Assembly: GCA_022539475.1 (NCBI GenBank)
Contig: VCMS01000011.1
Span: forward strand, 362,756-426,755
Length of the DNA: 64,000 nucleotides
DNA from: Gracilaria domingensis
Taxonomy: Eukaryota > Rhodophyta > Florideophyceae > Gracilariales > Gracilariaceae
Direction of reading: 5' to 3'
Below are positions 2,249-64,000 of this stretch, one piece after another (within the stretch, counting starts at the first letter, position 1; the number at the start of each line of letters is the position of its first letter). Made by a program: the position numbers and the translations under genes. The notes beneath the pieces were generated by a model that saw nothing but the letters and a program-made list of their open reading frames with translations, ran no database searches and was not told the origin of the DNA.

Positions 2249-3259
2249 TGTGAAGACGAGTTCCATTTTTGTGAATTGTATCCGAACAAGTGTTCGTGTT
2301 GAACAGCATGTGGGGTCAGATGGACCTTCGTCCATGCGGAAGGAATTGATCCGTCCCTCACTGGGTATACAGAGTACACATGGCTTGTAGCAAGTCCATG
2401 AAAAATGCAGCTGTTGTTTTCCGTATAATAATAGCTAGGTAATTATTACTTGGTTGCCTTGTTGTTTGTAAGCTGGCTTGATGTGTTTGTACGTTTTGTG
2501 AAGATTAAAACTACTAGCGATACGTTTTGAGTGCCATGGCCGTTTGTATCCTTCTGAGAACGAGGTGTCGCAATTGCAACATGAATTGCTTGAGATAATC
2601 ATACTCGTAGTAGAGTGTTCAGATGGTGGAAACAGGAAAGTTTCTCACGCCTTCGGGAACGAGAAACATATTCGTGTTCGTTGTTTGAAGTCCAGGTTAT
2701 ACAGCATATCTAGGAACATTCCCTTAAATGCTCGACGTCAAATCTCATCGTTCAACTGTGAGAAACTAGACCTCATCATGCATGATGCCGCAATGAAGGC
2801 CATATCCTGCTCATTTACGTGCCCGTTTGCCCAACCCTCAATAGATACGTGCTAATGCGTATGGACCCTCAAACAAGACGCAATTCGCACAGATGAGTGC
2901 CGTAGAGAGCGACCCAGCGTTGGAGACTTTGGTAGCCCGCGTCAGTAGATATTCCTGCCTTACACCAAAGCTGACGCGCGCCGTAGTTCCTACCTTCGAG
3001 GAAGTACTTACACCGGTAGCTCGCCGATAACTCGCCTTACCTGCCTTCTGCTTGCGTGGTCAGGCTCACCTCAGCAACCTTTCCTCCAAAAGATTTTTTC
3101 GGCGTGCTGAACTTCGTTTTGTTGACAAGGCACAGTCATCTCTCACGCGGTAGTCGGCAAGTCTTCTGCGCGCAAAATGAAGAAGTTAAAGATTGCATTT
3201 TAGGTGAACACGGCTACACGTCTCTATCGTCTCTCACGAAACCAAAAAATACACAACAG
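2249..3259. other. Intergenic region between convergent genes
   Basis: About 1 kb separating the 3' ends of the kinase (+) and SDR (-) genes. It should contain both 3' untranslated regions. Composition is close to even. The open frames at 2544-2855 and 3056-3328 show no domain or protein-like composition. I see no further structure. Confidence 0.5.
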
Positions 3260-18949: not shown

Positions 18950-20995
18950 CTACACCTCCAAGCTGCGCGCAGTCATCTCCGATTCGGCCACCGTGTCGCT
19001 CACCGACTTGCCCGTCTCCATGATCGACTCCTCGTCCATGTTCTTCCCCTCCGGCTTCTCCTTCATCGCCCCAACCACCGTGTTGAAGCTCTCGTACACC
19101 GGCAGAATCACCATGGTAGCCGTCGCCAGAATTCCCCAGATGAACGAAATAATCACCCAGAAAGTAAAGTACCCCTTCGAGAACGCCCGCGCCGGCAGCG
19201 TCAGCAGCGGCCACGCCACCACCAGCACCAGCGTCAGTCCCACGCCCCACAGCATGATCAGCTTGCTGGCGCGAGCCAGCTCCGCCTCGGTCTCCTCGCT
19301 GATCTCCGCGTTTCTGTCCTCCTCCACCAGCGCAATCGCCTTTGTGTTGGACCAGTCACAGTTGTCGCTCTTGACAAACAAGCTGATCAAAATGCAGATC
19401 GCGCCAGAGCTCAGAATCGACACCAGGTTACCGGCGAGCATGATCGGGTCGCGGCTCAGGTTCTTCACGCTCACGCCCCCGTCCGCCGCCCCGTACACAA
19501 TCCACGTCGTGAAGCCCATGGCCAGTCCGCCGAGCGCTCCGCTGATGGCTGCCAAACCGGAGCACTTGCTCCACGAGATGGCGAACGCCACCGGAATCAC
19601 AGCAGATCCAATCATCACACCCATGAACAGGTACAGGAAGTTGAGACGCACCCCGATGGCGTTGAGAGCGATACCGAGCACACCCATCAGTAGACCGAAC
19701 ACCAGGATGGCAACACGCGAAACAAAGATGATCTGCTTTCCGGTCGCGTTGGGGTTGATGTACGTTCGATAAATATCGTATGCCACCAGTGACGATACCG
19801 CGATCTGCTCGGCGGCACCAGTGGACGTCACAGCCATGAAAAGCATGATCAGAATCAACGCCGACCCTCCGGCGCCGAGCAGATGCGTGGCCACGGCAGG
19901 CGGCACCAGGCCGCTGTCCACCTCCGTCGCCGACAACGGCAGCGAGAGAGCCACCGACGCAAGCCCCATGGACGTGGCCAGTGAGAACGGAATAGAGAAC
20001 CAGCACAGACCGCCGAGCAGGTATCCCTTCCACGACGCGGTGGGCGTGGCGGCAATGGCCGACTGCCAGTACGACTGGTCCACGAACACGGTTCCAAAAT
20101 TGCCGACAATGTTGGTCAAACCGAAGAACAAGCCGTTGCGCGAAAGCATGGTAAGGTACGATCCGGCATAGTTGTCTTCCACCGGCGCGATGCGGATCAC
20201 AGAGTTGAGATTGTCCCACACCTTGCCCGGAGAGCCCAGATCGTCGTTGGTGACGTACACCTGGAAGATGAAGATACACAGCGAGATGAGGATGACAGCG
20301 GTGTTGAAGTACGACGCAATGAACGTAGCCTTGAGGCCTCCAGCCAAGGTGTACAGGATGACACCAAGCGGGATGAGGAACGACGCCAAATCGGTGTTCA
20401 TGCCGGTGAGCGCGTTGACAGTGGCAGAGCCACCCAAGATAAGCATCGAAGTGACAATGATATTAGTCATGAACGCAAACACGACGAACACAAGATGCGC
20501 CATCTTGCCCCAGCGGGCGCGCACAATCTCCAGAAAGGTGTGACAGGTGGGCGCACGACGCTTGACGAGCACGGCCAGCATGGAGAAGAGCAGAATCTGG
20601 ATGGTGGCGCCCGACGCATACCAGAACGGGCCCGAGATACCAAACTTGTTGGCAACGGTGGATGACTGCAACAAGGTGGCGGCCCAGGTCCACTGCGACA
20701 CGAGCACGGAGGCGGTGAGACCGGTCTTGATGGTACGACCGGCCGTGTTGAAAAACTCGGAGTTCATATCGACGCCGGTGATGAGGTGCTCCAGACGGAC
20801 CAAGCCGACGGTGAAGAAGCCGAAGGCGATACCGAAGGCGAGCACGACGACCCAGCCGGACCACAGCGGCAGGCTGTTCTCGACGAAGAACTCATTCTGA
20901 CATCTGTATTGCTCAAAGCCAAAGTAGTTTAGAAGCTGCGAGTCGCCCGGACAGTTGAACGGATTGACGGTGGCTTCGGACAAGGTAGCAGCCAT
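18950..20995 (-). CDS. DUR3: Urea-proton/sodium symporter, DUR3 type
   Basis: Predicted 681 residues from the ATG at 20995; the frame stays open upstream but only with a TTG. Belongs to the sodium:solute symporter (SSS) family. After an extracellular N terminus with paired Cys (NPFNCPGDS ... QYRCQ) it has about 14-15 membrane segments. Family landmarks include LAGGLKATFIASYFN, a conserved FVDQSYWQ after a Gly-rich loop, and MAVTSTGAAEQIAVSSL. This order and length fit DUR3 of fungi, plants and algae, which imports urea at the plasma membrane with protons. The C-terminal 40 residues are acidic, Ser-rich and cytosolic, a plausible phosphoregulation site. Codons are strongly G/C-ending, as in the LHCR gene, which suggests high expression. 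Confidence 0.92.
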   Translation of the reverse strand: MAATLSEATVNPFNCPGDSQLLNYFGFEQYRCQNEFFVENSLPLWSGWVVVLAFGIAFGFFTVGLVRLEHLITGVDMNSEFFNTAGRTIKTGLTASVLVSQWTWAATLLQSSTVANKFGISGPFWYASGATIQILLFSMLAVLVKRRAPTCHTFLEIVRARWGKMAHLVFVVFAFMTNIIVTSMLILGGSATVNALTGMNTDLASFLIPLGVILYTLAGGLKATFIASYFNTAVILISLCIFIFQVYVTNDDLGSPGKVWDNLNSVIRIAPVEDNYAGSYLTMLSRNGLFFGLTNIVGNFGTVFVDQSYWQSAIAATPTASWKGYLLGGLCWFSIPFSLATSMGLASVALSLPLSATEVDSGLVPPAVATHLLGAGGSALILIMLFMAVTSTGAAEQIAVSSLVAYDIYRTYINPNATGKQIIFVSRVAILVFGLLMGVLGIALNAIGVRLNFLYLFMGVMIGSAVIPVAFAISWSKCSGLAAISGALGGLAMGFTTWIVYGAADGGVSVKNLSRDPIMLAGNLVSILSSGAICILISLFVKSDNCDWSNTKAIALVEEDRNAEISEETEAELARASKLIMLWGVGLTLVLVVAWPLLTLPARAFSKGYFTFWVIISFIWGILATATMVILPVYESFNTVVGAMKEKPEGKNMDEESIMETGKSVSDTVAESEMTARSLEV

Positions 20996-22636
20996 GATGA
21001 AACAAAGTGCAGCGGATGACGCGAGTGGCCTCCACCTCGACAACAAACGAAACTAGAAGAAGCGTATGGATGCGACGTGGGCAAAGTGAGCCGCGCGGGG
21101 TATAAGGAACGAGGCGGGGGTTGTGGGGGGAAGGGGAGAGGAGCGCGGGGCGAGCCACCGGGCGCGGAGTTGACTGAAGGGGGAGTGTGGAGGGGGGGAA
21201 GGAAGGGGGGGGGGGGGGGGGCGGTGGGGGGGCGGGGGACGCAAATCACAGCGGGAGTCGCGAATGTGAAGCAGTGCTCTTATAGCGGTCGTGAGAGCGG
21301 GGGGGGGGAGGGGCGGGAGCGGCGAAAGGGGGGAGTGGCACACGGTGTGGCGCAATGAAGGCGCGAAGGCGGCTGGAACAGGCGGAGCGGAGGTGTAGCG
21401 TGACGCAGCACACGTAAAGGGGGCCAAAGCGCGCAGCTGATCCGTAGTGACGCGGCCGCGCGGGGGGGCCGCGGCGCGCGCGCGCGCGCGCGCACGTGCG
21501 GCGTGCGCGCGGCGCGTCCGCAAGCGAGCGGCGCGCATGCTCCGCTGCTGCGGCCGCGCGCGGATAAGTGGCGCGCGGCCGTTTTCGCGCGCGCGCGTTT
21601 ATTGCGGACAGCTGCGCCGAAAGCGGCGAGCGGCGCCGGCGGTTGCGCCACCGGCGGCGGCGCGGCCCGCGCGGCCCGCGCCGCGCCGCGGCCGCCGCAG
21701 GCGCGGCCGCCGCCGCCGGGCCGCGCCAACTGCGCGCAGTGCGCGCGCAGTTGTGCGCGGCGGCGATGCAGTTAATCTTACAAGCGCAGCGGCGCGGCGC
21801 GGCGCGGCGGCGGCATGGCGGGCCGCCAGATGCGTGTTTTTTCGCTATTTTGTGGCGCGCGCTGCGCGCGCAGATAGCGCAGATCGCGCAGATTGCGCGC
21901 GGCGCGCCCGCACTGGAGCGCCGTCTGTCAACTGCGCGCGCGACTGAAGGGCGGCGGAAGAGAGGGAGGGGCGGGTGGGGGGCGGGGGGGGGCGCGGCGC
22001 CGGGCGCGCGGGGGACGCGGCGCGCGCGCTTTCAAACGCGCGCGGTGCAATGACGGCGCGCGGCAGTGCGAAGCAGTTTTGCATTTCGCAAGTGCGTTGA
22101 ATCTGCTTTATACGCGGCGTGGCGTATCGACGAGCACGTACCACGGCGTACAACAGGCTGCGCGCGCAGCGCGCTCTACGTGCTCGCCGCCGCTTCAGCA
22201 ATGACAAGCGGCGCTAGTGCGCAATAGCATTGTCTAATACGGCGGGGCGGGGCGGGGGGCGGAAAAAAGAAAAGAGCGCCAACAGCGGAAGACACAGCGG
22301 AAGACAGCGGACGGCTGACCGCGGCGGCTGGACAGCACCGCCTGCGGGGCGGGCGACCAGCGCGGCAAGCACGTGCTGCGCGGCTTGCCGCGCGCGGCGG
22401 CGGCGGCGGCGGCGTTTGATCCGCGACGCGCGCCAACAAGCTCGAGATAGGAAACGGGCGCGCGTGGCGGAGCGGCGGCGGCGGCGGCGGCGCGCGCAGT
22501 GCCGCGCGCTTCGGCGCGCAAAAAAGGCACGCGCGCCTCGCCAGTGCTATGTTTAGCGCGCGCAGCGCGCGAGCGCGCGGCGGGTGTAATTGCCAATTCA
22601 ACGCCGCCGCCGCGCGCCTACGCCCGCCGATGGAAC

Positions 22637-29736: not shown

Positions 29737-32436
29737 ATGGCGCTTCATATATTGTTTCTTTTTGTTTTGATCTACAAGTCTTTTGCTAACGCTGAAGCAT
29801 CCTGGAAGAAGGTTTCCGTGAGTGGAAGCTACCCCGGACGCGGCGAGACTGCATTTTCTCGATGTGGAGGCAGCAAACTTTGTCTCCTTGGTGGCCGTGG
29901 CTCCAACCGTGTCCATATTTTGGACACTGATAAACTCCAATGGAGCCCTGGACAGCCAAACTCTATTGAGATGCATCACTTCCAAGGATTTCAAGGTCCA
30001 GACGAATGCGTATGGGTTGCGGGTGCTTGGACTGGTCCGTACCCGAATGAAAGGACGATTGACAACATATGGCGCTATTGCCCAGACTCAGATGAATGGT
30101 ACAAGGACGCGCCCATATCTCGCCCAAGAGGCTCAGGGGGGGCGTTCTTTCACAACGGCAAAGTTTATTTGGTCTCGGGAAATGTCGGTGGCCATCGTGA
30201 GGGAGCTATAGTAGTTCCCTGGTTCGATTCTTATGATCCGGAAAGGGGAAAATGGGAGCAGCTCCCCGATATTCCTCACGGTAAGTCATCGACAAACACA
30301 TGTGTATATGGCCGGCGAACATTTCGAATCATTCTAACCTTGCATTCTTTGCTGTGAGACGGGTTTCTGAATTCGGATGCAACCTTGACTTTCGCGTGTT
30401 CAGCTAGAGATCACTGCCATGCTGTGGTAAGGAACAACAAGGTGTACGTCGCTGGCGGTCGACGTTCGACATCAAAGGCACCGGAGTTTTTCGACGACAC
30501 TGTGGCTGAAGTAGATGTGTATGACTTTAGTTCTGGAAAATGGAGTACGATAGTGAGCCTTGATCATCCGCGCGGTGGCACAGCTTCTGCCGTTTATAAC
30601 AATTCTGTATACTTGATTGGCGGTGAAGGTGACAATCGAGCGTGGACCGAGGTTGATGTTCTAGACAATGAAGGCTTTGAACGTTGTCCATCTTTGCCAG
30701 AACCGCGTCACGGAACAGGAGTTGTTTCGTGCAACGGGGCGATTTGGATTGCCGGTGGGGCGCGGGTTCTCGGAGGGGGAAACAATGCCGAAGACACATA
30801 TGCATTCTTTGAGGGTAGTGATCCACCAACCTGCAAGTATCCCGAGGTTCATCAGTGGACTGCAAACCAAACATCTTCCGAAGGAGATCTAAACCGTGGC
30901 ACTGAGTTTGACGACCCGTCCGTTGAAGCTACACCTGATGAACTGGTTGAGACTACAGCACCTGTTTCTCTCCCAGAAACTATGGATTCTGTGCCTTTTT
31001 CCACTGGCGCTACCGCCGTTTCTAATACATCCGAACCCAACGAAACGATAATAGCTTCTCCTTCTCCTGGAATTAGTGATATAGAGCAACAGAAGCCTAT
31101 CTCAGTCGAAGTACTTCCTAAGTCACCTCCGTCTCTAAACCTCTCTGATTCCGACTCTGAAAACCCTGAAGATGTGCAGTCTAGTAGGAACTATTCAGAA
31201 CAGATTCCTGGAAAGAGATTTGGTAGAGATGGAAACAACTCACGAAAAGTTCCTTATGGCGAACTTGTTATTGCTGCCAGCACTGCGCCTGTTGAAGAGG
31301 GCTTCATGAATGCGATTGGTGCCAGCACTGCACCCGTTGAAGAGGCCTTTAGAACTGAATCTCCAAGAGCATCACCTCTGGCCGTGGAGAATGACTTCGG
31401 CACTGTTCCCGGTTCGCCGGAGCCCAGTTTGCCTTCGAAAACAGGCAATTCGGTGCCTATGGACCCATTATCAACTTCATCAGTTTCTGTTTCGGATTCA
31501 GATGCAGTCCCAGTCCCCTCTCTGCCTGACATAGATGGAAATGACTTGCAGAATGAGTCTTCACCGGAACCTGTTGATTCTGATGATGAAACTAGTCTTG
31601 ATTTCATTAACGGTAAGTTTCGGGCGGCCGCGACTATCATTCATGCGGGATATTGTTCGGTTGGAACACAGCCGGTGCAACTCATGACTCGCGAAATCAA
31701 TATGCTGACCATTTCTTTGATTGCTTCCCTAACAGACACTTCTCCCGAACCAACTACATTGGTTGAAATCGTTTCAAAGGAAGAAGGATCTCAACCAGCT
31801 TCGGCAGAAGAACCTGAGGGTTCCAATTTGTTACTTGAAGAAGAATTGTTTGATGATGTGGAAGCTTCAATGGAAGGCGATGCAACAACGTCATCCTGTT
31901 TTCCGTCTGATGCGCTCGTTGAATTAGAAGATGGTTCATCAAAACGGATGGGTTTTCTTCGCATAGGAGACCGCATCAAAGTTGCACACCCTGATGTATA
32001 CAGCGAGGTGTTTTTCTTTTCACACAAACACCCTGAGAAGAATTCCAAATTTCTGGAACTGAAGACATCAGCTGAAGGCGTTTCCCTGACGTTGTCACAC
32101 GACCATTTAGTATACGCAAACGGGATGGTTGTGGAAGCTTCTACGGTACAAGAGGGAGATAACTTGTTGCTCGGAAACGAGGCCAAAACTGCCTTTGTCA
32201 CGGATATTGTAGAGGTCCAGGGTTCGGGCTTGCATCATCCACATACGATGCACGGGGATATTGTTGTGAATGGTGTGGTTGCCAGCACTTTTACGTCAGC
32301 CGTCCATCCGCGATTGGCGAAAGTGCTCCTCCTACCGTTCAAGATAGCTTTCTACATGTTGCAAAACAAGGTCCACATTGAAAACGTCAACAAATATGTG
32401 CTTCGCGCCCTCGATGCAACTTGGTGGGGAGCTTGA
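29737..32436 (+). CDS. Secreted kelch-repeat protein with C-terminal Hint/Hog autoprocessing domain
   Basis: Three exons, 29737-30280, 30404-31612 and 31736-32436, joined by two GTAAGT...CAG introns of 123 nt each, give 817 residues. A signal peptide (hydrophobic MALHILFLFVLIYKSF) is followed by about five to six kelch-like blades (residues 20-350; examples LCLLGGRGS, VYVAGGRRS, VYLIGGEGD, IWIAGGARV). A long acidic Ser/Pro/Thr linker contains two ASTAPVEE copies. The C terminus (about 636-790) is a Hedgehog-type Hint domain: Cys639 in SSCFPSDALVELEDG, Thr703-x-x-His706 in TLSHDHLVY, and GDIVVNGVVASTFTSAVHP. By analogy with Hedgehog, Cys639 would form a thioester and the N-terminal kelch part would be released or attached to an adduct. 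A 40-residue hydrophobic/basic tail may be the adduct-recognition segment. Confidence 0.87.
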
Positions 32437-50993: not shown

Positions 50994-53003
50994 ATGTCAT
51001 CCGGTCGCAGGAGTGGCGCGCCACGTGCTGCTTCTGTGCCCAGTTCGTCCGGCTTGCCGGAAAGTCTGCCTCCGCTGCCGAAGGACACCCTCGAGGTCCC
51101 CGGTAATGGCGCTCTGAAACCGGCTTCCCGGGCTCTCCGTTCTGATAACGGGACCCCACCCACTCGTGGGCCAACTGAAACCGCACCTGCGGCTGATTCC
51201 GCCGCAGCGATTGACGTTATGTCGCCGCGGTCTGACGAGTACACCCTCCGCGAATTAAAGGCTCAGGTTTGCATCCTGCAGAACTCTCAAGTGGGTCTCA
51301 TCCGGGATATTACGAAACTCCGGCAACGGCTCGATGAAGCCGGTGTCCGGGATGTTTCGAGCGACGTCCGTGTTTTACGGTTTGATGTCAACCAGATTAT
51401 GGAACACAGACAGGTGTCGGCTGCCCTGCACGAGCAGGCTTCTGCACGCCTGGACGGCCTGGCTACCCGTCTGGAGACGGTCGAGCAAATCATCGTATCT
51501 GATGCTGTTGCGCCGGGAGCCCCGATTTCTGAGGGTTCTCAGCACTCGCGCCGTTCCCGGGATCGTCCGGCAAAGAAGAAGGTCAAGGTTGAGTCTGACT
51601 CGTCTTCTTCGTCCTCTTCTGATGAGAAAGGCCCTCAACAGGGATCGTCTACCGACTTTTCGGACAACGCGGAAGAGCGTCCACGCTATCGTGCATCCCG
51701 TTCGCGGGCTACTGAGGCCACTTCTGGTGTAGTACGAGGCCGTACGAGAGGACGGAGACACCTCGGATTGAAGGAATTGATACCGACGAATCTACTGTAT
51801 CGGAAGTTACTGTCCTACCGATACTATCGGCTTGAAGACACGACGCCACAGAGGACCCCACGTGGGACTGGCAAAGTGCGAAATCATCTCCGGCAAATGG
51901 AGCTCACGCTAAAGCCCCACAAGTTCTCTGAGGAAGATCCAATTCTTGTCTTGGATTTCCTTGGCCGCTTCGTGGCGGAAGCCGATGTACTTCGGATGAG
52001 TGAGGCACAGGCCTACATTGCGCTGCAGTACTTTCTGACGGGCGTAGCCGAAGATCAATTCAATTCGGTTCGTGGGTCATCTCGCGCCTCCGAAGGAGGA
52101 GTTACGTGCTGGCCGGAAGTGGTACAATATCTCCTGCACTCTTACGCGACAGGCAATGCGATACAGGGTGCTATACTTGCGCTGCGAGACACGAAGCAAA
52201 GAGCCGATGAGTCGGAAACCGTTTATTTCACCCGCCCCAAAAAGGCTTTCCACAGATGTGGCAACGTGTTCTCCACAGCTGAGCGGTGTACGATGTTTGT
52301 TGATGGCCTGGACGGATCAATTAGAACGTTGGTAGCCCCTTATCGGGAGAACAAACCCCGGATTACCTATCTGGAACTCGTACAATTTGCCCAAGCTGAG
52401 AGAGATCCAGCTCGCGCACGCGCTGGTGTCAAGACGCGCACGCGCCATCTCCTTCATGTAGAAGGCCGGGACTCTTCCTTGCCTCTATCGTGAGGTTCGG
52501 TTCAAGAGGGTTATGACAACCTACACCTGTTACAGGCCGATGTTTCAATGCCGACTACGGAGTTGCTGTCAGCGACAGAGCCGTCTACTGTTGACGTAGA
52601 CCCCGCTCTGTACACCGGTCAACATGTTCCGGCTTTGCACGTGCAACATTCAGGTGGATATCGCAGCCAACGCCCTGGTTGGAGGGACCCCTATCCTCCA
52701 CGACAGGAGCGCCGTCAGCCGAGTCCGGATCTCCTCCGGCACCTTATTCGCCACACCTGTTACAGGCATGGACACATCGCTCCGAGTTGTTTAATGCCCA
52801 TACGGGATATGGCGAAGATCGTGCCTCAATACGAGTCGTTGACGCCCGCCGAACGGGAACGCGTTCCCGACAAATCGTACCTGCGTGCGAAGGCGGAGAC
52901 TCAGCCTGGAAACCAGGAAACGGTGCCATCGAATGGTGGAACCGTAGCCGCTCCTGCGGAATCAAAACCTCCGCAGATTGGCGGCGAAGCTCAGAGAAAC
53001 TGA
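50994..53003 (+). pseudogene. Retroelement Gag, interrupted by one in-frame stop
   Basis: A single frame runs from the ATG at 50994 to the stop at 53001-53003, broken only by TGA at 52491-52493, which is one C-to-T change away from CGA. The first part has a coiled coil (about residues 85-165), a Lys-rich stretch PAKKKVKVE followed by a Ser/Asp/Glu run, and a Gag core (FSEEDPILVLDFLGRF ... ALQYFLTGVAEDQF). After the stop, HTCYRHGHIAPSC resembles a CCHC zinc knuckle in which one Cys is His. Particle assembly and RNA binding would be its roles. The Gag label rests on these features and the protease downstream. Confidence 0.72.
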
Positions 53004-53199
53004 GCATGGGAGCCTCCAGCAATGGAGAGGCGCCCCCAGCGACGGGGTCTAGTGCGCCTGAGGCTGAGAAGCCTCGCTCCCCGGTCACAATCCTTTCGAG
53101 GAAGATGGCCACTACAGACGTGGACTCTGAGCACCTTGATGTCTCTCGTCGCCGTGGATACGGTCTAAGAACAGCCGGTCCCCGGATAGAGTCCTGGTC

Positions 53200-53922
53200 A
53201 TGGCGAAACGAAACTACAAAGTTTACGCCGACCTAGGGGTTTCCGACCAGTATATGGTTCGGCATTTGTCCGTGCTCGATACAGGAGCTGGGCCAAACTT
53301 TTTGGTTGAGTCTATGATTCCGCCGCACTTGCGGTCTCACGTTCGTGCGGAGCCGCATATTGATATCGCGGATGCGAATAATCGGCCACTTTCTACAGTG
53401 GGAGTGATAGACCTGCTTGTCAGGCTTGGCCACTACGTGGTGAAGCTCGATTTCTTGGTTTGCAAGCAGCTCGCTGCGCCGGTTATACTCGGATGTGACT
53501 TCTGTGACCGCTTCGTCGAATCAATTCGACCGCGGCGAAGAACCATCGAGATGGAAGATGGGACCATTGTACCGATCGTGCGGCGTCCCCTTCGACGGGC
53601 TTTGAAGAAGCAAGTTCCCTTGCCTGCTGCGCAGGAGCCCGCCGCTGATGAACGGAAGTCTACAAAGCTCCGAGTTGCTCGGTCTATTTGCATCCCGCCC
53701 GAATCGCAGGTCTGGGTTACTGTAACATCTCCACAATGTGACTTACGTCTGTCTCTTGCAGATGCTAGTTTTTGGCGAGGGTCGTCCAGAAATTGGCAAG
53801 GGTCGTCCAGTAAATTTTTTGAAAAAATATCGAGATCAATTATTTCAAAATTTGCAGATAATTGCTTGGGTCGTCCAGAATCGCTGTGCAGTAAATACTG
53901 GTGGGTTTTCCACTCGTGCTAG
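53200..53922 (+). CDS. Retroelement aspartic protease, 3' truncated
   Basis: A 240-codon frame shifted by one relative to Gag. VLDTGAGPNFL (Asp27-Thr-Gly) is the catalytic motif and APVILGCDF (about 90-98) the second conserved hydrophobic-Gly motif of retropepsins. The protein is protease-like to about residue 185. Codons after about 53755 encode unrelated sequence with three copies of GTCGTCCAG, so the pol region has been cut and replaced. In an intact element this protease would mature the Gag-Pol precursor as a dimer. It is a remnant. Confidence 0.75.
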   Translation: MAKRNYKVYADLGVSDQYMVRHLSVLDTGAGPNFLVESMIPPHLRSHVRAEPHIDIADANNRPLSTVGVIDLLVRLGHYVVKLDFLVCKQLAAPVILGCDFCDRFVESIRPRRRTIEMEDGTIVPIVRRPLRRALKKQVPLPAAQEPAADERKSTKLRVARSICIPPESQVWVTVTSPQCDLRLSLADASFWRGSSRNWQGSSSKFFEKISRSIISKFADNCLGRPESLCSKYWWVFHSC

Positions 53923-54243
53923 TTCTTTAGTCGAGGGCTACCTGAACTGTATTTCGCGAAGTCTAGGTTCAGTTTCCATTAAGGTGCACATTACACGATA
54001 CCTTCTGCGGAATGATACCCTGCAACGCATGGAATACTAGTGCTAGTACAGATGATGCCCATTATGAAATCATACCGTTTTATTCGTATCTATTCTTCTA
54101 TCGACCGCTTTTGCTAACCACTACTTCGCTATATTACATGTACCATTTCCCCATGATGGATCGGGTGTAGGCGCAATCTGCGGCAGATGCCGCAGAGGGC
54201 ACCTGCACCAAATTGCGGTAACGGTAGAACATATACGCACTCC

Positions 54244-54276
54244 GAGAGGATGAGGCGCGAAGCGCCTCATCCTCTC
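54244..54276. repeat. 15-bp stem hairpin with GAA loop
   Basis: Arms GAGAGGATGAGGCGC and GCGCCTCATCCTCTC are exact complements around GAA. It resembles a terminator-type or small-element hairpin. Confidence 0.9.
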
Positions 54277-54286
54277 TGTTCGTCAT

Positions 54287-54320
54287 GTAGGGAACCATGC
54301 CCAGATGCATGGTTCCCTAC
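54287..54320. repeat. 14-bp stem hairpin
   Basis: Arms GTAGGGAACCATGC and GCATGGTTCCCTAC pair exactly around a 6-base loop. It follows the previous hairpin by 10 bases. Confidence 0.9.
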
Positions 54321-54377
54321 TTGAGGAACCTGCACCTGCAACTCGTGAGCTACGTACGCATCAAAAGTCATTTACCT

Positions 54378-55262
54378 GTATACGCAAGCGGAAAGTATCC
54401 ATAAGTTAGTCAATGATCCGTTGGATACATTTGAAATGCGATGGAACGTACCATTGATAAAGCAAAACAGAAACGTTGCGCTAGAAAAGTCGAGGGACCT
54501 AGTAACTCGCAAAATGAAAAAGAAGAAGGAAAGGGATCGGTTAGATTACCAGCCCACCATCATCGTAAAGCGCGAAAGGTGTCGAAGCGAGAACTCACAA
54601 CCAAGGACACCAAGAATGCCCATGCAGCAAACATACCTCAAGATGCGATAAACGAAAGAGCAGCCTATGTCCCAACCAAGTACCAGAATCGCCTATCCCG
54701 AACAGCCAGAGATCGATCTTGAGAGACGAAATGAAATTGGTCGTTTTCCTGTATACGCAAGCAGAAAGTATCCATAAGTTAGTCAATGCTCCGTTGGATA
54801 CAGTTGAAATGCGATAGAACGTACCATTGATAAGAGCAAAACAGAAACGTTGCACTAGAAAAGTCGAGGGACCTAGTAACTCGCAAACGGAAGAAGAAGC
54901 AGGAAAGGGATCGGTTAGATTACCAGCCCACCATCATCGTAAAGCGCGAAAAGGTGTCGAAGCGAGAACTCACAACCAAGGACACCAAGAATGCCCAAGC
55001 AGCAAACATACCGCAAGATGCGATAAACGAGAGAGCAGCCTATGTCCCAACCAAGTACCAGAATCGCCTATCCCGAACAGCCAGAGATCGATCTTGAGAG
55101 ACGAAATGAAATTGGTCGTTTTCCTGTATACGCAAGCAGAAAGTATCCATAAGTTAGTCAATGCTCCGTTGGATACAGTTGAAATGCGATAGAACGTACC
55201 ATTGATAAGAGCAAAACAGAAACGTTGCGCTAGAAAAGTCGAGGGACCTAGTAACTCGCAAA
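54378..55262. repeat. Tandem array, 2.4 copies of a 373-375 bp unit
   Basis: GTATACGCAAGC recurs at 54378, 54751 and 55126, giving periods of 373 and 375. Copies 1 and 2 are nearly identical along their length; the third stops at about 55262, after GTAACTCGCAAA. Indels of one or two bases change the frames, so predicted peptides differ (for example 54441-54722 and 54827-55192, both Lys/Arg-rich). The shifting frames argue against coding. The array separates the retroelement remnant from the large transposon. Confidence 0.9.
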
Positions 55263-55524
55263 AGTAACCCAAAGCCTTTTTCCTGCCGTTTACATGTCGC
55301 AGAGCGCGAAGAGATGTGGTGAGGATTGGTTAGTTTAGAACAAAGATACGTAGAAGGAAATGGAAGCACGTACGAAAAGACTGCACGGAAAGACTGCACG
55401 GAATACATCCGTGAGATACGGATGCTGTCCGCTTTATGGAGGCGTCCGACGAGGGCGGAGAAAGAGAATGAGGTACGCTTCATGTCCGCTTAATGGAATC
55501 CATTCTCAGCACGCTACTTCGTAA

Positions 55525-55590
55525 TCCGTCGTACTTTTTTCCGCCCTCGCACTTCGTAGCGAGTGCGAGGGCGGAAAAACGTACGACGGA
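55525..55590. repeat. 29-bp near-perfect hairpin left of the large transposon
   Basis: Arms TCCGTCGTAC-T6-CCGCCCTCGCACT and the complement, with one mismatch beside the T/A run and an 8-base loop. It lies about 430 bases before the transposase start and could be subterminal to the element. Confidence 0.85.
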
Positions 55591-55954
55591 GCGGAGTAGA
55601 ACGCGAGGATGGCACGGATCACGACGGTAACAAAAGATCGGACGTCGGACGGGCGGGGGCGGCGGCGGAGGGAAGAGATTTATTTTTCTGTGCGAGATTA
55701 GACAAGTGTACAGCGTACAACGTTGGGAAACCACAGGTTTATAACCAGTGGTAGATAATACGAGAAGTACACCCTTGTGTTGAGGTCGACGTGTACCTAC
55801 GTTCCTTTTTGAACGAAAGCACGTGATTTAAACTCAAAATATATTCTCCGTTCTGAGCAACACGTCGATATTGACTGTCGCTCGACCTCCTTCTCCCTTC
55901 GGATGCCCTTCCCTTGCAGTCTTTGTCGTCGTTTCTCGTTCATTTCTTCTTCCC

Positions 55955-58900
55955 ATGGTCTACTACTGTACACATAAGAAGCGTGGGTGCCCCTTCGTTA
56001 CTCGCCGAGGAGTCTTATCTCTTCAACAGCATGTCAACCATTGCCCGTTTCGTCTGAAAGCAGCGCTGGAAGACGACAATAGCCGGGCCATTCGGAGAAG
56101 CAAGCGTCTCAAGCTTTCCGCGCCCGCGCTCGCATCTTCCGAAACGGTCACTGCCCCTTGTCGCCTTCCCGAGCCTCCAGTGTCCGAGGACATCGTCGAC
56201 CCCACTCCGTGCGCCCCTCCCATTCCGGACACTTCGCATTGTGTTTCTCCTTCCCCGGGTCCCGCGTCATTAGAGCGAGAACACGGAAGCAGTTCCCGCC
56301 CAGTGCCTTCTGAGAAGGCCCTTGGTGATTTGCATATGGATTATCTCACGGTTTGTCTGGCTTCAGTAGCTTCCAACCTTGGTCATCGTGAGGCGGACGA
56401 GCTAATTGGGCTACTTCGGGACCCGCGATTCTCGCAAAAGCGATTCAACGAGACCATAACAAGTTCCAAGCGCTGTACAGAACTGAAGAACGCCATTTTC
56501 GAACGATACGCCTCAAAGGACGGTTCCAATCGCAGAACTGTCTCGCCAGAAGGATGTAAGTTCAGCGCCACCCTCTACACGAGAGACCCCGTTCAGACAC
56601 TTGTGAAACAGCTCCAGTTGGCTAACAACGAAAACACATTCTTCCACCCTATACCTCAGACCCACTCCACGAAAATATCTCACCCCATGTCCGGCTCTCT
56701 CGCAAGAGACGCCACCTCAAAACTTAAGGAAATGGTCATGGGCTCTTTTGATAGTGGAATAGTGTGGTACTCCTAAGAAATAAGTTACAGTGAATCTTTC
56801 GTAGGTCTTCTGCAGGTATACACCGATAAGTCTTCAACAACTCTAAAGCAAACATCGGTTACCGCCTATCCTCTTCACCTCATATTTCTCAACTTCTCCG
56901 ACGAGCTTCGCCGTAAGTGTATCCGTGATGACCTCACAGTAGTGGCATACTTCCCTACCACACTGATCGAGGTTTCCGCATCTGAAGCAGACGCAATGCC
57001 ATTCGTTTCTAGCAAGTCTCTACGCGAGTCCAGGATGCAAATCCTTCAAGAATCTCTTCGTCAAGTCCTGGAGCCCATTCTAAATCTCACGCAGAAAGGT
57101 TTTCAGTTCATCGGGGAAGACAAACTAAGTCGAGTGTGCCATCTTTTGCTTGCAAGTTATTGTGCGGATATTCCTGAGGCTAAGGACATTCTGTCCATTC
57201 TTCATGGGACCAAAACGGAAAGCCCGTGTCATAGATGCAAAGCCCCTCGCTCATCTTTATGCAGTCCTATTCCCACCTCATTCAACGGACGTTCTCAAAA
57301 GCACACGAAAAGCATCCGAAAGACATACACAGCTATCTTGCAACATGCACAAAAAGACGAGGCGGAAAGACGTCCACGTCGTGCGAGGGAGAGGAGATCT
57401 CAAGCGGATACTCTGATGCGTTCAAATTCCATATCTCTCATTCCTTCGTTCCTCGAAACTTCCGTAAGCCTTGGAATGATCCCGGGATTGTCTCCATACA
57501 GTCTGTTCTCATTTGAACCATTACACAACTTGCATCTCGGCATCTCAAAGCTGATAAAAACGGCCACAATCGAGAGACTGCAGTCAGACACCCCGTGCAC
57601 CACAATAGGAACATCTGCATCGCGTTTATTTCGAACGATACGCACCCAACTCCTCAACCATGCAAACGCAATTCTAGCTGCCATAGAACGCGATTCTCCT
57701 GCCAAAGGTTTACATATCGATTTCTCCACGCAAGAGAAAGGCAAATCTTTGAATGGTATCTTCACGAAAGACGGTCTCCGTGGAATGCTGGAGGCCAAAA
57801 ACTACAAAGCACTTGACATGGTCTTTCCCTTCATAGGAGCATTCTTTGACATATGCTGTGGAGAACAGGACGTTGCCCCAATCACAACCGTTTTCTCTCA
57901 GTACTCGGACTTGCTCTCGACCTTATTCAGATACAATCGTGACCCGTATTGGACTGAAAGCTCTCTCCTGTGTCTTAGTTCGGAGATTGAAGCCTTCAAG
58001 CGTTCCGCAACAAAGACTCTGGCGGATTTTCATCCCTCCAGACTGGGAACTCTGAAGTTTTATCTTCTCGATCATCTCGTGGACGATATTCGCCGTCTGG
58101 GAAGTATCAAACACTACGACGCAGGCATATACGAACATGCACACCTGCTACTTAAGAGACACTACAAAAAGACGTCCAGAAGAACAGCAACGGCTGTGGA
58201 GGAGAATATTCGCTTCATTGAGCACGGACATATTAGAAAGCAATGGAATGGCACTACTCCTTACCAGCGTAATCCAGGTTTACCAGGAACTTCCACACAG
58301 CTTCCTCGGTTTGCAATGAGAGGGCGTTCTTTCACTTTACGAGCTCTTCAACATTGTGTTTCAAGTATGTCCAGTTCAAAAACATGGACTGCTGTTAGAG
58401 AGATGTTCTCAAGTACGGACACAAGGTCGATTCTTGATCAGATTGGTGAACAGGCCCTTCCTCCTTTCCTCAGTCTCGTGAAAGAAACACTGGATGAGCA
58501 CTCTATTACATACTTCCCAGAAAAGACAAGGATAACTCTGGTGAATTCGGCCGTCGTGAAAGGCGGTTTCGTTCCGACTCTTGAACACTTCGATTCGTCT
58601 TCTAAGGCACTTAAGCTGGGACGACCCAAATACCCCATCATCCAACGGTTCTTCGCTTCTCCAGCATTTGGTCCCAGTAGAAAGCCAAAGTTTTCCACTG
58701 CATTGATAAGCGGAGAAGATTCAGAGACTTGGGTTGCCCAGGTAGTCGCTCTGATTCGAATATCTCTCCTTGATTCTGCACTTACCGCACCAGAGGTGGC
58801 ATTCGTCCGGTATTTCGAGATTTTACCCCCCGCAACAAACATCGACCACATATTGAAATGCATATCTTTACGGTGGGCTACAAACGATGAAAAGAACCAC

Positions 58901-59134
58901 ACTCTTCCGTTCCCTCGTCATTCCAAAGCGGAGACTATCGTAGAGTTAACTCCTTGGTACGGGATGGTTCCGGCTTCTGCACTACAGGGAACTGTCCATG
59001 TTTTTCTATCAAACTACCCTGCTCCACCTTTTTGTCCTCCACTTCAATGGTTTCAACACCGATTCTACATCAATCGATTCTATCATGATTCAGATGAAGG
59101 ACCAACTGAGCACGTTGATCTTGTACAGCCTTAA
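55955..59134 (+). pseudogene. Plavaka/CACTA-like transposase, one in-frame stop
   Basis: A single frame of about 1060 codons broken by TAA at 56774-56776. It starts MVYYCTHKKRGCPF with a Cys/His finger (C5, C12, H26, C30-like; finger ends HVNHCP), as in Plavaka elements. After a Pro/Ser linker the catalytic domain begins directly behind the stop: QVYTDKSST (first Asp, codon at 56825) followed by a YPLHLIFLNF ... RRKCIRDD ... VVAYFPT block, the Plavaka/EnSpm signature around the first acidic residue. FEPLHNLHLGISKLI further on is the conserved His/Gly segment. No canonical intron of plausible size removes the stop, so I call it a recent disruption. Family placement is by motif recall and is moderately sure. 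Confidence 0.72.
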
Positions 59135-59291
59135 ACATTAAGGGCTCCATCCTCTACATGTTCACCTTGTGGTGCCTTTTCTTGTGATCCTGTGTTACTT
59201 CCGAAATCGTTCATGTCCATTTCCTTGAACTCCATATCCCCTTCCTCGCATTCACCAACGAAGCAATCGCTAATAGACCCCAATCTTCGGC

Positions 59292-61523
59292 TCACACTGT
59301 CAATAAAAATTGTTCTTTCACAGTGAGGTAAAGTCTTCCGTTCGACGGCATTCGATATCCAAATGTAGCCTCTCTCATGTCATTACCAAGAACCTTAGTC
59401 CAATCTTCCGTTGTCGTTCCAAAATTATGAAACTCGCTGGAATTGGTCCTCAAGACACGTTGCCTAACATCTCCCAGAACATTCTTTAAACACAGAGGTA
59501 GCAGTTCGGCAAACTTCTTTGTAAACAGTTTCTGTCTCTGGCCACCTCTTGACACATCCGTACTTAGAAGGCTCACAACCGTCAACACCCAAGCGTCCAA
59601 ACGTGCGAGCAACAGTATTGTGCCATCTAAAAAGGTGCCCGTATCCTTGTCTTCCACATCATACCCAATAAACTCCTTCAGCACTTGTACCCCGACACGG
59701 TTTCGGAAGAACAAGTCTTGATCTTCCGTCGGCATATCCTCGACATTGTCCGCATTGGAGTACTTTAGACGAACAAAGGGGCTTTTCTCCACCATGAAGT
59801 GTTCGGTACACCATGTTCGTCAAGACGCAGTATGTTCTCCTGCGCTTCCTTCAACTGCATTGTCAGTTCGTCAGCACTCTCTTCTACCAGCTTTGTTCTT
59901 CTCCAAATCAGATCGTACCCCAGGAGCAGAAATAGTTTATCCCTCGTATTTCTCTTACGAACCCCACGACATCACTCATGGTCTGCCGAATTCTCTGCCT
60001 AAGGCACATATCTGCACAAAGTTCCAGTATACACCTGTCGGTAAGAGATGCTTTTCTAATACCTTCCCAGCTCAACTCCTTCAACTCGCTTTCAACCATT
60101 TTCTTCAGCAAAGCATCTGGCCCCCCCTCTACCGACGGTGTGAACATGCCAAAACTGCCCAAGAGCTCCACGGGGTTTTTAGGAACCATGTATGAACCAC
60201 CTTCCTCCGGCTCAATAAGCCCTTCCCCACTCTCAGTTGTGTCTTCCACCTTCTCGGCACGGTTACCCCAATTTCGGGTGAGCGACTCACCTTCGAGCCA
60301 TAGCTCACTTGTTTCTCTCCTTGCCCACGTCAGCATGTTGTGATACACTGCTCGAGCAACCCCTCGAAACTCGTCGCACACCTCAATTTTATGCTTCTTT
60401 CGACCTGTCTGCCCAGGTTCACCAGCACGTGTACTCCTATCTCCCTCCTGTTTCAGTGCCCCTCTTAGCCCTTCAATGACTAGATCCTTCTCTTCAAGCC
60501 TCTTTTTCAAAGCCGTACTCTGCTCTTGGGCGACCTTCACTAGAATTCCCCGAACCATCAAGTCCTCTTGTAGCGTCTTAACCTTTTCTTTCAAGCAATT
60601 CAGTTCATTTAAAAGATCAGGTCTGTTCATAGAGGTTGAATTCACACCAGTGTGGATATCTTCCGGTATTTCCCTAGCCTCTTCGGCGACAAGCCCCGGT
60701 AATGCCGCAGGATCCTGTGTTATTTCGTTATCGGAACTATCCTCATGTGCCATACCTTTAGACACGAGAGGCTGCAGGCGTTCTGTGTCCACCCTTGGCA
60801 CGGCTCCGAGCTCCAACTCCCGTGTATGTCCTCCTCCATGGCATGGTATATCAGATGAATTGGGCCTCGTACGAGCTGCAACGGCCCCCGTTCTGGAAAG
60901 AGGGGAAGGTCGAGGAGTAACTCGTCTATCAGTTGTCTCTCGATTTCTTATTGTCTTTCTCCCTTTTCCGGACCCATTGCGAGCCATAATACGATTCATA
61001 GCGGCCCCGATTCTAAAAGACAGGGAAGGACGTGACGATCTTAATATACTAGGGCTCTCACGACTTCTCGTCATTGTCTCTTGTTGTCCAGATCCACTGG
61101 GCGGCGTAACCCGCGCCCCAGTAGCTCCGGTCTTCGATATCGGCCAGGGACATGAAGGCTTTGGTGTCATACAAACCTCTTCAGTTCCAGTTGTCATGCC
61201 CTCCTGTCCTGACTCGCTGGGCCGAGTTACCTTATCTTCTTGAGGAGCAGAGACAGATGCATGATTTGCATTATCGGCAGTTGACGGCACGACATCATTC
61301 GCTGATCCACGAATTCTTGACGCAATCCCGGAAGACGCTCCGCTGAAAGATGGGCGAGAGAGTACTGTAGAAGGACGCCCACTGACTCTCTCCTTCGTCG
61401 AGGACGACTTTCGTTTAGGAAGTGCGGTGCTTGTAGCCTGATTCGTATCATCCGATGCTCTTCTCTTCTTCTGTCCACTCTTGTTCCGCTGCGTACTATT
61501 TCGCTTTCTCGGCGTTATACCCA
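59292..61523 (-). pseudogene. Basic/coiled-coil transposon protein, two frameshifts
   Basis: Starts at the ATG at 61523 (MGITPRKRNSTQRNKSGQ). The first 300 residues are Ser/Arg/Lys-rich and disordered. A coiled coil follows (LNELNCLKEKVKTLQED), then helical sequence to 59908. The sense then continues in another frame (YDLIWRRTKLVEESADELTM region, about 59920-59805) and again in a third from 59795 (EKSPFVRLKYSNADNVED) to the stop at 59292. The likely first slip is a GGGG run near 59919. Either two indels broke the gene or very small introns exist. No catalytic domain was recognised; a DNA-binding accessory protein of the transposon is a guess. Confidence 0.55.
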
Positions 61524-61559
61524 TGTTGTGGAGATAAACAGGGTAATGAAACGAAATTG

Positions 61560-61600
61560 TTTGGGGGTGGGGGGGGGGGAGGGGGTGGGGGGGGGGTGTA
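61560..61600. repeat. G-rich tract 5' of coiled-coil gene
   Basis: Nearly pure G over 35-40 bases on the plus strand, interrupted by single T or A, between the SET and coiled-coil genes. It is capable of quadruplex formation. Confidence 0.8.
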
Positions 61601-61780
61601 TGGTTCAGATATTCCGGGAGACTTTGCAGTTCCTGCTTTTTAGGAATTTGAAGTGCCCAATGGGTCGCAAATATCGCCGTTACAAATAGATGAAGAGCTC
61701 CAGTGTACATGTACAACCCGTATTGCAGGCAGCTGCAACATTCACAAGCATATTTACTTTCTATTCGGTACTCCACTCAT

Positions 61781-62386
61781 CTATTGCTCCAATGTCAGAG
61801 CCCAGTCCCAGGCGTACTGCTCTCCGTAGTTGAAATACAACTCTTCGCCCCTCTCGATATCTCTTACTGCTCTACAACGAAGTAGAGCATAGTTAGAAAG
61901 GTCGGACTTAAACTGTATCACGGACTTCGCTTCCACCATCTGCACATTGGCACTTCGAGTCCTGTGTGACCGGGGCCCCGATAAATCGGGATCCCCGGCA
62001 TGATATCCGCCGTCGTTAATGTAGCCCCCGATACAAAAAGGCGCCGGGACAATGTACACTTCGCTCTCCTTTCTATCCTTAGCCTGTCCTGGTCTGTTCC
62101 TCAGGTGTAGAAACTCCGTACCAGTCACAGTGACCATCATAGAAAACAACTTGTACCGCACTGGAGTTGCTCCGAGACAGCCACTTCCATACGTTAAGTG
62201 TCTTTCCTTCCGGTTCGTCAGATCCGTGTATACCAAAGTTCCATAAAAATGACAGATAGTTTCCCCAGCCAATATCTTATGTTCCGTGAACACTCCCATA
62301 CCAGCACGGCGATGTCGAATCTTAGGAGATGCTACATGTAAGCGATAGCGATTGGCTTCAACAGTCAACAGCATATGCATATCCAT
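61781..62386 (-). CDS. SET-domain protein (putative methyltransferase)
   Basis: Predicted 201 residues, ORF intact. SET landmarks in order: AGMGVFTEHKILAGETI (28-44, the SAM-binding GxG strand and following turn), IGGYINDGGY (119-128, in the place of the usual RFINHSC with Asn124 kept), LLRCRAVRDIERGEELYFNYG (168-188) with Tyr188 as candidate catalytic Tyr, and a short end. There are no pre-SET or post-SET Cys clusters. Such free-standing SET proteins methylate lysines of histones or other proteins. It overlaps the end of the methyltransferase ORF by 29 nt in a different frame. Substrate is unknown. Confidence 0.82.
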   Translation of the reverse strand: MDMHMLLTVEANRYRLHVASPKIRHRRAGMGVFTEHKILAGETICHFYGTLVYTDLTNRKERHLTYGSGCLGATPVRYKLFSMMVTVTGTEFLHLRNRPGQAKDRKESEVYIVPAPFCIGGYINDGGYHAGDPDLSGPRSHRTRSANVQMVEAKSVIQFKSDLSNYALLRCRAVRDIERGEELYFNYGEQYAWDWALTLEQ

Positions 62387-63533
62387 TAGATTCAGAGCTC
62401 CTCAGTACTTCTCCTCCCAAAGATCTACAGTATGCTATCCACACTTGTCGACAAAGGTCCCAGTCCTTCCAGTATCTTCCTAGGAACTGAGTAATATGTG
62501 CAGGCATCACTTGGTACTGGAGGTAACCAAATGGAGCCTCCCATTCAAGCCGACCTCGGTGGTGGTGTGGAACCAGTTCATAAGTCGTTGAAGCCGCATC
62601 CACCACCTCCTGTTCTACCACGATGTCATTCTTCCCCCCGCGAATAACTTCGGCTATAAGAGTCGTTATATGGTGCTTCGCATGGCTGAAACATGGCCTA
62701 TTCTTCTCGCACCCCAAGAACTTTCTATGCTTTGTCAGCGATAGGCACGCCATACACGTACAAAAATTTCCCGCGAACATGTCCATGACAAGATCTCCCG
62801 GTCTTGTGAAGCGACATATCAACTCTTTCATCAACTCCCTGGACTTCTGCTCCGGTCTTATGTACTGCCCACTTGGTACTGAACTACCTGGCTCATGTAC
62901 CTTCCATGTCAACCACTCCCCCGCTCTCGGTTTCGGCACCCGGTCAATTACATTCCTGTTAGCCGGGAAAATAGAAGGAATGAAATTGTTCTCCTCAAAT
63001 GAAGTAAGACTGGCTTCCTCCGATGGTCGCAATCCACGCTTCACCCCATGAACGGCGTACTCCGTTACGGGCTGTATCCCAAACTTCCGTGGATTCCCTC
63101 CAACATTACTTCGATCCCGGATGAACACCAGTGGATTCCCATCCACTTTAAACGAAGGCATGAGTTCCGGTTTACCTTCGCTTCCAGCTTCATCTTTCGT
63201 ACTCGCCGTTTCCGAAAGTATCCTGTGCCAAACATGAAACTGTGCCATGGCACAGAATATAATGAAGTGCCCACCTGACCGAAGCGCGGAACTTATTAAG
63301 TCAGCCGTACTGATCATGTCATCCTCACAGAAGACATCGTGAGCACTATTCTGTTTGCTCCTCTTCCTTCGAGTGTTAAAGGGAGGGTCTGTTAGGACAA
63401 GCTGTGCCTCACCGCATAAAATCTCACTCTGATTCACAAACGTTTCGTGTGTGTGCTTCAGGTCCTTCATGTCACAGTTGTACGGTACAAAATGTGACTT
63501 TCTTATCCCCTTCCACACCTTGTCCATATTCAT
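62358..63533 (-). CDS. Beta-class DNA amino-methyltransferase (N6A or N4C)
   Basis: Predicted 391 residues from the ATG at 63533. The order of motifs is that of beta-class bacterial amino-MTases: catalytic motif IV first (LVLTDPPFNTR, Asp49-Pro-Pro-Phe52), then a variable target-recognition stretch, then a RPEQKSRELMKELI segment leading into motif I (GDLVMDMFAG, 246-255) and motif II (FLGCEKN, 272-278, Glu276 for SAM ribose). The usual FxGxGTT is FAGNFCT here, so the second Gly is Phe257. DPPF/DPPY favours N6-adenine over N4-cytosine methylation, but this is not certain. A bacterial or phage origin is likely for the family. It is probably nuclear-acting as transposon cargo. Confidence 0.83.
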   Translation of the reverse strand: MNMDKVWKGIRKSHFVPYNCDMKDLKHTHETFVNQSEILCGEAQLVLTDPPFNTRRKRSKQNSAHDVFCEDDMISTADLISSALRSGGHFIIFCAMAQFHVWHRILSETASTKDEAGSEGKPELMPSFKVDGNPLVFIRDRSNVGGNPRKFGIQPVTEYAVHGVKRGLRPSEEASLTSFEENNFIPSIFPANRNVIDRVPKPRAGEWLTWKVHEPGSSVPSGQYIRPEQKSRELMKELICRFTRPGDLVMDMFAGNFCTCMACLSLTKHRKFLGCEKNRPCFSHAKHHITTLIAEVIRGGKNDIVVEQEVVDAASTTYELVPHHHRGRLEWEAPFGYLQYQVMPAHITQFLGRYWKDWDLCRQVWIAYCRSLGGEVLRSSESNGYAYAVDC

Positions 63534-63555
63534 TCGAAGGAGACTGGATATCCCT

Positions 63556-63918
63556 TCATGGGCGGCTCAATACCGGTCTTTTGGATGTTGTACCGGCAAC
63601 CCGAGATTCATGCTCCGCACGATTCACCGGCTTCTCGAAGTCGTCGCTATCGGAGCTCACGAGGTTTATATACTCTCGACGAGGTGGGGGTGGGGCAGAC
63701 TTGGTCGAAGAAGTTTCGGCATTACCGGAAGTTTTAGGAGTTTTCGTCAGTTCAATATCAGGTTTCGCGTGAATGCCTATATTGACCTGCCAGCATGACG
63801 GCATATCCTCTATCGGTTTCCATAGAGCTCCGAAAAGTTTCTGGAAATGTGCAGGCAACTCACCGGAGTGAACCAATACGGTATCCTTCCGTATCTCGAA
63901 TCTATCCAGTTCCTTCAT
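63556..63918 (-). CDS. Upstream piece, possibly the N terminus of the methyltransferase
   Basis: Open frame of 120 codons with a Pro-rich and acidic linker (KSAPPPPRR, SSDSDDFEKP). It ends 22 nt before the methyltransferase ATG. The methyltransferase frame remains open upstream of that ATG for 12 codons (AAHEGISSLLR), so a one-base shift near 63560-63575 would join the two. It is therefore either a separate small gene or the first part of a frameshifted methyltransferase gene. No domain recognised. Confidence 0.45.
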   Translation of the reverse strand: MKELDRFEIRKDTVLVHSGELPAHFQKLFGALWKPIEDMPSCWQVNIGIHAKPDIELTKTPKTSGNAETSSTKSAPPPPRREYINLVSSDSDDFEKPVNRAEHESRVAGTTSKRPVLSRP

Positions 63919-64000
63919 CTATCACCCGTGCTGATAGAGGCTATCGTGGTGCATAATGGGTTTTCGGGTCTGTCAAAAAATTTCCTTAGCAGTATTCGGA
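63919..64000. other. Right edge of window
   Basis: Eighty bases upstream of the last minus-strand frame. Too short to find a terminal inverted repeat; the transposon probably continues beyond. Confidence 0.4.

Follow-up and report, generated by a model that had tools for sequence, protein, structure and literature searches.

The closest described relatives of the element reported here, a giant DNA transposon of the Plavaka lineage carrying a gene that joins a DNA methyltransferase (MTase) to a SET domain, come from other algae, from fungi and from Amoebidium. By its sequence, such an element is what a 64,000-nucleotide stretch of Gracilaria domingensis DNA ("the window"; contig VCMS01000011.1, positions 362,756 to 426,755) ends inside. 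Giant EnSpm elements and proteins combining ParB with an amino-MTase have been reported in algal transposons (PMC12477816). Among them, Sola1-1_Ec32 of Ectocarpus is a 21.5-kb DNA transposon that encodes a 1104-amino acid ParB-like plus N4C/N6A MTase protein opposite to its transposase. However, it is a Sola1 and not a Plavaka element, the two domains named for its protein do not include SET, and the Gracilaria element splits the ParB-like region and the MTase into divergent genes (PMC12477816). In Amoebidium, Plavaka giant repeats reach 50 kb, but the accessory genes named are tyrosine recombinases, and the paper nowhere uses the term "SET domain" (PMC11244446). Plavaka and other DNA transposons of fungi that have taken up TET/JBP genes resemble the element in the lineage of the Plavaka transposase, in a 2-bp target duplication and in the capture of a gene for DNA modification, for which evasion of silencing has been proposed; they differ in having captured a dioxygenase instead of an MTase-SET writer and in their termini, TGT..ACA or CATCA..TGATG (PMC12730594). 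Finally, some retrotransposons encode their own cytosine methyltransferase, but these are retroelements with C5 enzymes, in contrast to a DNA transposon with a bacterial-type amino-MTase (PMC5890265).

Since related elements exist in algae, fungi and Amoebidium, the kind of element is already known. Giant Plavaka transposons are also said to have expanded Ceramiales genomes (Petroll et al. 2025, on Bostrychia moritziana). A literature search that fell short of most subscription literature, the closest red-algal study included, returned no description of an MTase-SET fusion in a transposon. As far as searched, the fusion, the anatomy of the element and its termini are new. Our preferred reading, to which we give a probability of roughly 0.45, is that the predicted MTase-SET protein marks the DNA and chromatin of the element as permissive, countering host silencing.

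A methyltransferase and a SET domain in one gene

The initial annotation described a DNA transposon with a transposase and, on the opposite strand, separate genes for a SET protein and a beta-class amino-methyltransferase. Pfam detects all three domains (PF18759, PF00856 and PF01555) in the places proposed, so the domains stand, but the separateness of the two genes does not. On the minus strand of the window, the SET part forms a frame of its own (61784..62455; PF00856 at 61784-62386, 34.5 bits, cut-off 22.4), the MTase part with its DPPF motif forms another (62445..63557; N6_N4_Mtase, PF01555, at 62361-63533, 56.9 bits, cut-off 26.7), and what is left of the N-terminal portion of the protein, at 64% identity, falls in a third (63541..63957). 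The window copy is defective: besides the three frames of MTase-SET, it has a stop inside the transposase frame and a fragmented gene downstream of SET. Intact copies have a single 1,055-codon frame, and Pfam finds both domains in one 1043-amino acid protein. Judged from these copies, MTase and SET are one gene, not two.

Amino-methyltransferases of the beta class have motif IV before motif I, and this is the order found here, with motif IV (DPP[FY], here DPPF) ahead of motif I. The nearest MTase relatives by sequence profile are DpnA and CcrM. The SET part combines a SET profile with a C-terminal EEL..YG motif and gives weak matches to the solved structures of EZH2, KMT5A and KMT2. A protein search returned 12 MTase-SET homologues (identity, 29-46%), and both domains are present in at least 9 of them (8 by a precomputed Pfam list and a ninth, P0008, by our own scan); SET was not detected in P0012 by a Pfam rescan that left aside P0005 and P0009. 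Among the homologues, D509-P-P and E1024 are invariant and N966-D967 nearly so, and D711, F713 and G715 of motif I are conserved. Given the divergence of these sequences, the fusion is old. Viral contigs yielded 40 pattern stretches and no relative among them, and the 26 pattern stretches from prokaryote genomes included three generic MTase matches.

The MTase-SET gene and the transposase within shared termini

Contig C11 of the 77.9-Mb, 680-contig assembly that was searched ends with the window. Further copies, whose search the initial annotation had proposed, are plentiful: with up to two mismatches, the patterns matched 209 MTase and 351 transposase sites genome-wide (control, 0). In the exact-match site lists, which run over contigs up to C115, a transposase lies 1.5-6.5 kb downstream on the opposite strand at 37 of 59 MTase sites, at a distance of 5.14-5.33 kb in 32 of them, and the controls gave 1 on the same strand and 0 and 1 upstream. 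Read from the other side, an MTase partner stands at the expected place for 37/99 transposase sites. Spacing was also scored over six steps across the element, as lower bounds among the matches listed: (i) HAD gene to left end, at least 23/27 (contigs up to C67); (ii) HAD gene to dioxygenase candidate, at least 27/114; (iii) dioxygenase candidate to MTase, at least 20/84; (iv) MTase to SET, at least 77/106; (v) SET to transposase, at least 20/150; and (vi) transposase to right end, at least 8/33 (contigs up to C234). The inverted-orientation control gave no cases in the first five steps, which are those it covered.

The transposase of the window (55832..59131, plus strand) is a 1100-codon frame with an in-frame stop at 56774-56776; its counterpart in another copy, open over 1100 codons, matches it at 97% identity. 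PF18759 is detected at 56942-59131 (plus strand) with 38.2 bits and in the 1100-amino acid transposase of the C91 copy with 68.1 bits (cut-off, 26.3 for both). Plavaka transposases have C(2)C and H(3-4)H motifs (PMC12730594), and both are present here, as CHRC at 466 and HLLDH at 744.

Comparison with other copies places the element further out than the 55525..63918 first proposed, which covers only its inner part. The right end lies at 53746, and the right part of the element (53746..64000, minus strand) continues past the end of the window and contig; it is 97% identical to the C91 copy over 55568-63998 and 53745-54709. That copy, at 108708-131637 of contig C91, is our reference of intact length (22,930 bp). 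The right, transposase-side terminal inverted repeat of the window (53746..53760, plus strand) reads CGTCTGTCTCTTGCA, and its partner at the opposite end of the element reads CGTCTGTGTTCTGCA. The C91 copy has the same two termini, CGTCTGTGTTCTGCA on the left and CGTCTGTCTCTTGCA on the right, which form 15-nucleotide imperfect inverted repeats (identity, 12/15) with the signature CGTCTGT..ACAGACG. This signature matches the termini of neither fungal PlavakaA nor fungal PlavakaB (TGT..ACA or CATCA..TGATG); therefore, we assign the element to the Plavaka lineage and to neither of these two types. Genome-wide, 572 left and 549 right ends were found with up to two mismatches (reversed control, 0), and these shared termini uphold the original view of a DNA transposon. 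Two other boundaries were discarded: a subterminal hairpin with 29-nucleotide arms (55525..55590) is internal to the element, and a left end just upstream of the MTase gene fails since homology between copies extends further. A subterminal tandem array (54367..55264; period 375, 2.4 copies) lies between the hairpin and the right end.

A TA dinucleotide adjoins the right terminus (53744..53745) and is presumably one copy of a duplicated 2-bp target site whose second copy lies past the contig end. Plavaka elements duplicate 2 bp (PlavakaA) or 2-3 bp (PlavakaB) of target (PMC12730594). We compared the flanks of 17 pairs of ends, C91 included, 10 of them less than 16 kb apart and 7 longer. The same dinucleotide (TA, TT or TG) stood on both flanks in 8/17 pairs, all 8 being among the 10 short ones, against shuffled expectations of 4.6/17 (p 0.04) and 3.9/10 (p 0.01). 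None of the 7 pairs above 16 kb, four of which measure 22.6-22.9 kb, had matching flanks. Aligning the copies, as had been suggested, has defined the terminal repeats, and the target duplication holds for most of the short pairs and for none of the long. The long pairs may be chimeric assemblies across a 23-kb repeat. In four pairs (on C23, C51, C53 and C65, that on C53 being short), one flank is element sequence and the other had no match among the sequences searched. A T preference at the target site, first read off the right flanks, was dropped: the right-end search pattern already contained the flanking T, and therefore no target base preference is claimed. The left pattern contained no flanking base, and on the left flank T stands at the matching place in 10/10 short pairs versus 3/7 long pairs.

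Copies of 10.3-10.5 kb make up 4 of the 17 end pairs (two on C8, one each on C19 and C2), and all four have matching flanking dinucleotides, which suggests that they are an amplified non-autonomous deletion form. One of the four, a TA-flanked copy on C8 (10,466 bp), was sampled as three 1.2-kb pieces. They align colinearly with the 22.9-kb element across its two halves: the first with element 1902-3079, the second with 10352-11515 and directly onward with 17979-18201, and the third with 20001-21201. By this alignment the copy is an internal-deletion derivative that has lost MTase-SET at the sampled junction and retained both ends.

The flanks of the long pairs would fit a different arrangement, in which a transposase element sits in or beside an unrelated repeat bearing the HAD, ParB-like and MTase-SET genes. 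We regard this as very improbable, since the C8 deletion copy joins both halves within the same termini and spacing is constant across the halves with no inverted cases. The initial annotation had named two outcomes that would tell against it, and the data show neither. Instead of excluding the minus-strand genes, both terminal repeats lie outside them, and the sampled copy lacking MTase-SET is a deletion derivative with the same ends. Rather than occupying one fixed host locus, a possibility now ruled out, the MTase-SET gene has copies on many contigs. On its further question, whether the SET and MTase genes travel with the transposase, their place inside shared termini and the pairing of exact MTase sites given above show that they do.

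Several copies stand at contig starts (for example, on C62, C105, C180, C228 and C565) with SET pointing inward, like the window copy. Assembly may stop at the palindromic region beside the MTase-SET gene.

Other genes of the element and its surroundings

The left half of the C91 copy holds, in order, a 342-amino acid open reading frame (ORF; minus strand), a truncated ribulose-phosphate 3-epimerase (minus), an ORF with no family match (348-415 codons; plus), a HAD-IIB pair (plus and minus) and a leftward ParB-like gene. The right half holds a palindrome-rich region, MTase-SET (plus), a gene first described as a coiled-coil protein (plus) and the transposase (minus). In the window this last accessory gene spans 59134..61776 (minus strand; a 622-amino acid ORF at 59908-61776 and fragments at 59134-59870), and in many other copies its frames reach about 860-880 codons; Pfam assigns no family to the 622-amino acid ORF.

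The epimerase piece (L108:141-458; C91 element 2042-2359; minus strand) matches PF00834 with an E value of 1.3e-24 in the C8 copy. It is present in all five copies examined (C8, C91, C34 and both on C257) and is, on sequence grounds, a captured host gene fragment. The HAD-IIB phosphatase-like genes near the left end are convergent (L064:3883-4950, plus; L064:5009-5761, minus), and the first of them gave 114 scored matches in the genome.

Between the ParB-like and MTase-SET genes lies the palindrome-rich divergent region, with 100-bp inverted arms. The leftward gene has a weak ParB-like region (PHROGs, E values of 8e-4 and 1.4e-3) and, in its second part, HxD...H-type motifs recognized by eye (HTD and GDVTHAG) that are altered in the C91 copy. 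Open frames around the HTD part run to 1,365 codons. Public gene models treat it differently: P0015 and P0016 join the ParB-like region to the HTD flanks and omit the HTD part, and P0013 includes it. No Pfam or PDB profile matched this part, and its structure prediction had a pLDDT (predicted local distance difference test) of 28.8; it is a candidate Fe(II)/2-oxoglutarate oxygenase at the level of motifs only.

The element is inserted at retrotransposon-like ORFs (50994..53743, plus strand) that have an LDTGAG protease-like motif by eye and no Pfam match. Elsewhere, at 30385-32433 (plus strand), the window encodes a Hedgehog-type Hint module (PF01079, E value 1.2e-28) preceded by Kelch repeats; it also holds a chlorophyll-binding protein gene.

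A predicted role in the chromatin of the element

In the preferred reading, the transposase would move the element via its terminal repeats, and either the N-terminal domain of the MTase-SET protein or a ParB-like partner that binds the palindrome-rich divergent control region would guide that protein to element DNA. On element copies, the protein would then methylate both the DNA (adenine-N6 or cytosine-N4) and a histone lysine. The marks would keep element promoters in permissive chromatin and oppose host silencing, and deleted copies lacking MTase-SET would be mobilized in trans. Across eukaryotes, N6-methyladenine (6mA) lies between nucleosomes bearing histone H3 trimethylated at lysine 4 (H3K4me3), with the hierarchy of the two marks left open (PMC12695648). 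This co-occurrence makes one protein writing both a DNA and a histone mark plausible. The homologue P0011 has an N-terminal ParB-like region ahead of MTase and SET (PHROGs, E value 6e-5). This ParB-MTase-SET fusion ties the separate ParB-like gene of the element to the same process. In the element itself the ParB-like region is in that separate divergent gene, not in the protein that carries the MTase, and BLASTP between it and the region of P0011 was not significant (E value 0.55).

Several observations weigh against this reading. Pfam detects no ParB in the ParB-like gene of the element or in P0011, and PHROGs gives no ParB match for gene model P0015. The link between 6mA and H3K4me3 depends on AMT1, which belongs to another MTase family, and an inhibitor test in the same study speaks against direct dependence between the two marks (PMC12695648). 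That study makes no mention of red algae, rhodophytes, Porphyra, Chondrus or Gracilaria. The long pairs lack matching flanks, as described above. Finally, an exact transposase match is missing from the expected place at 22 of the 59 exact MTase sites, and 62 of the 99 exact transposase sites lack a partner MTase; therefore, the MTase is not required in cis.

The last figure also fits marks acting in trans under a different function, in which MTase-SET governs transposition: methylation would tell old from new strands at the termini and limit or time the transposase. Dam methylation plays such a role for IS10. The element combines the MTase with a ParB-like gene, and its subterminal DNA is repeated and bears hairpins, as this function would have it, but the SET domain and the retention of the fusion are left unexplained, and we consider it unlikely.

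Alternatively, the marks could be repressive, so that the element silences its own copies, spares the host and reaches high numbers. Element ends number in the hundreds in this 78-Mb genome, retrotransposons carrying DNA methyltransferases are known (PMC5890265), and the structure matches of the SET part include EZH2, besides KMT5A and KMT2. The predicted DNA mark, however, is 6mA or N4-methylcytosine (4mC), and eukaryotic 6mA is tied to open chromatin (PMC12695648). To this, too, we assign a low likelihood.

The accessory genes could also be passengers, captured and amplified with no part in the life cycle of the element. In favour, the element has the truncated epimerase aboard, and among the few copies compared the ratio of nonsynonymous to synonymous polymorphism (pN/pS) gives no sign of purifying selection in the 342-amino acid ORF (1.19; 4 rows), a 361-amino acid ORF (0.94; 4 rows) or the dioxygenase candidate (1.09; 3 rows). 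Values were lower for the N-terminal part of MTase-SET (0.46; 19 rows), the transposase (0.49; 3 rows), the HAD genes (0.56 and 0.60; 4 rows) and the ParB-like gene (0.74; 5 rows). Against passenger status, pN/pS among copies was 0.24 for SET (48 rows; an 80% coverage rule excludes L010 and L018) and 0.28 for MTase (20 rows), both values being biased downward because the rows, loci L002-L050, were picked as the best protein matches to the window MTase or SET, with some copies counted twice, a bias that also weakens the preferred reading. The 0.24 supersedes a first SET value of 0.73, which deletion copies had inflated. The fusion is also kept in divergent homologues, and we judge passenger status quite unlikely.

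The most far-reaching reading would make the element a self-contained epigenetic kit: a dual writer that combines DNA amino-methylation with methylation of histone or other lysines, a ParB-like loader and, in frame with the loader, an oxygenase acting to erase or alter the mark. All would be driven from one divergent control region, and the element would thereby set and reset its own chromatin. We rate this predicted kit as improbable.

One protein that joins an MTase of the 6mA/4mC type to a SET domain would be a natural test of causal coupling between DNA and histone methylation. Since some of the hundreds of closely similar copies have the gene and others lack it, cis and trans effects could be compared within one genome by long reads.

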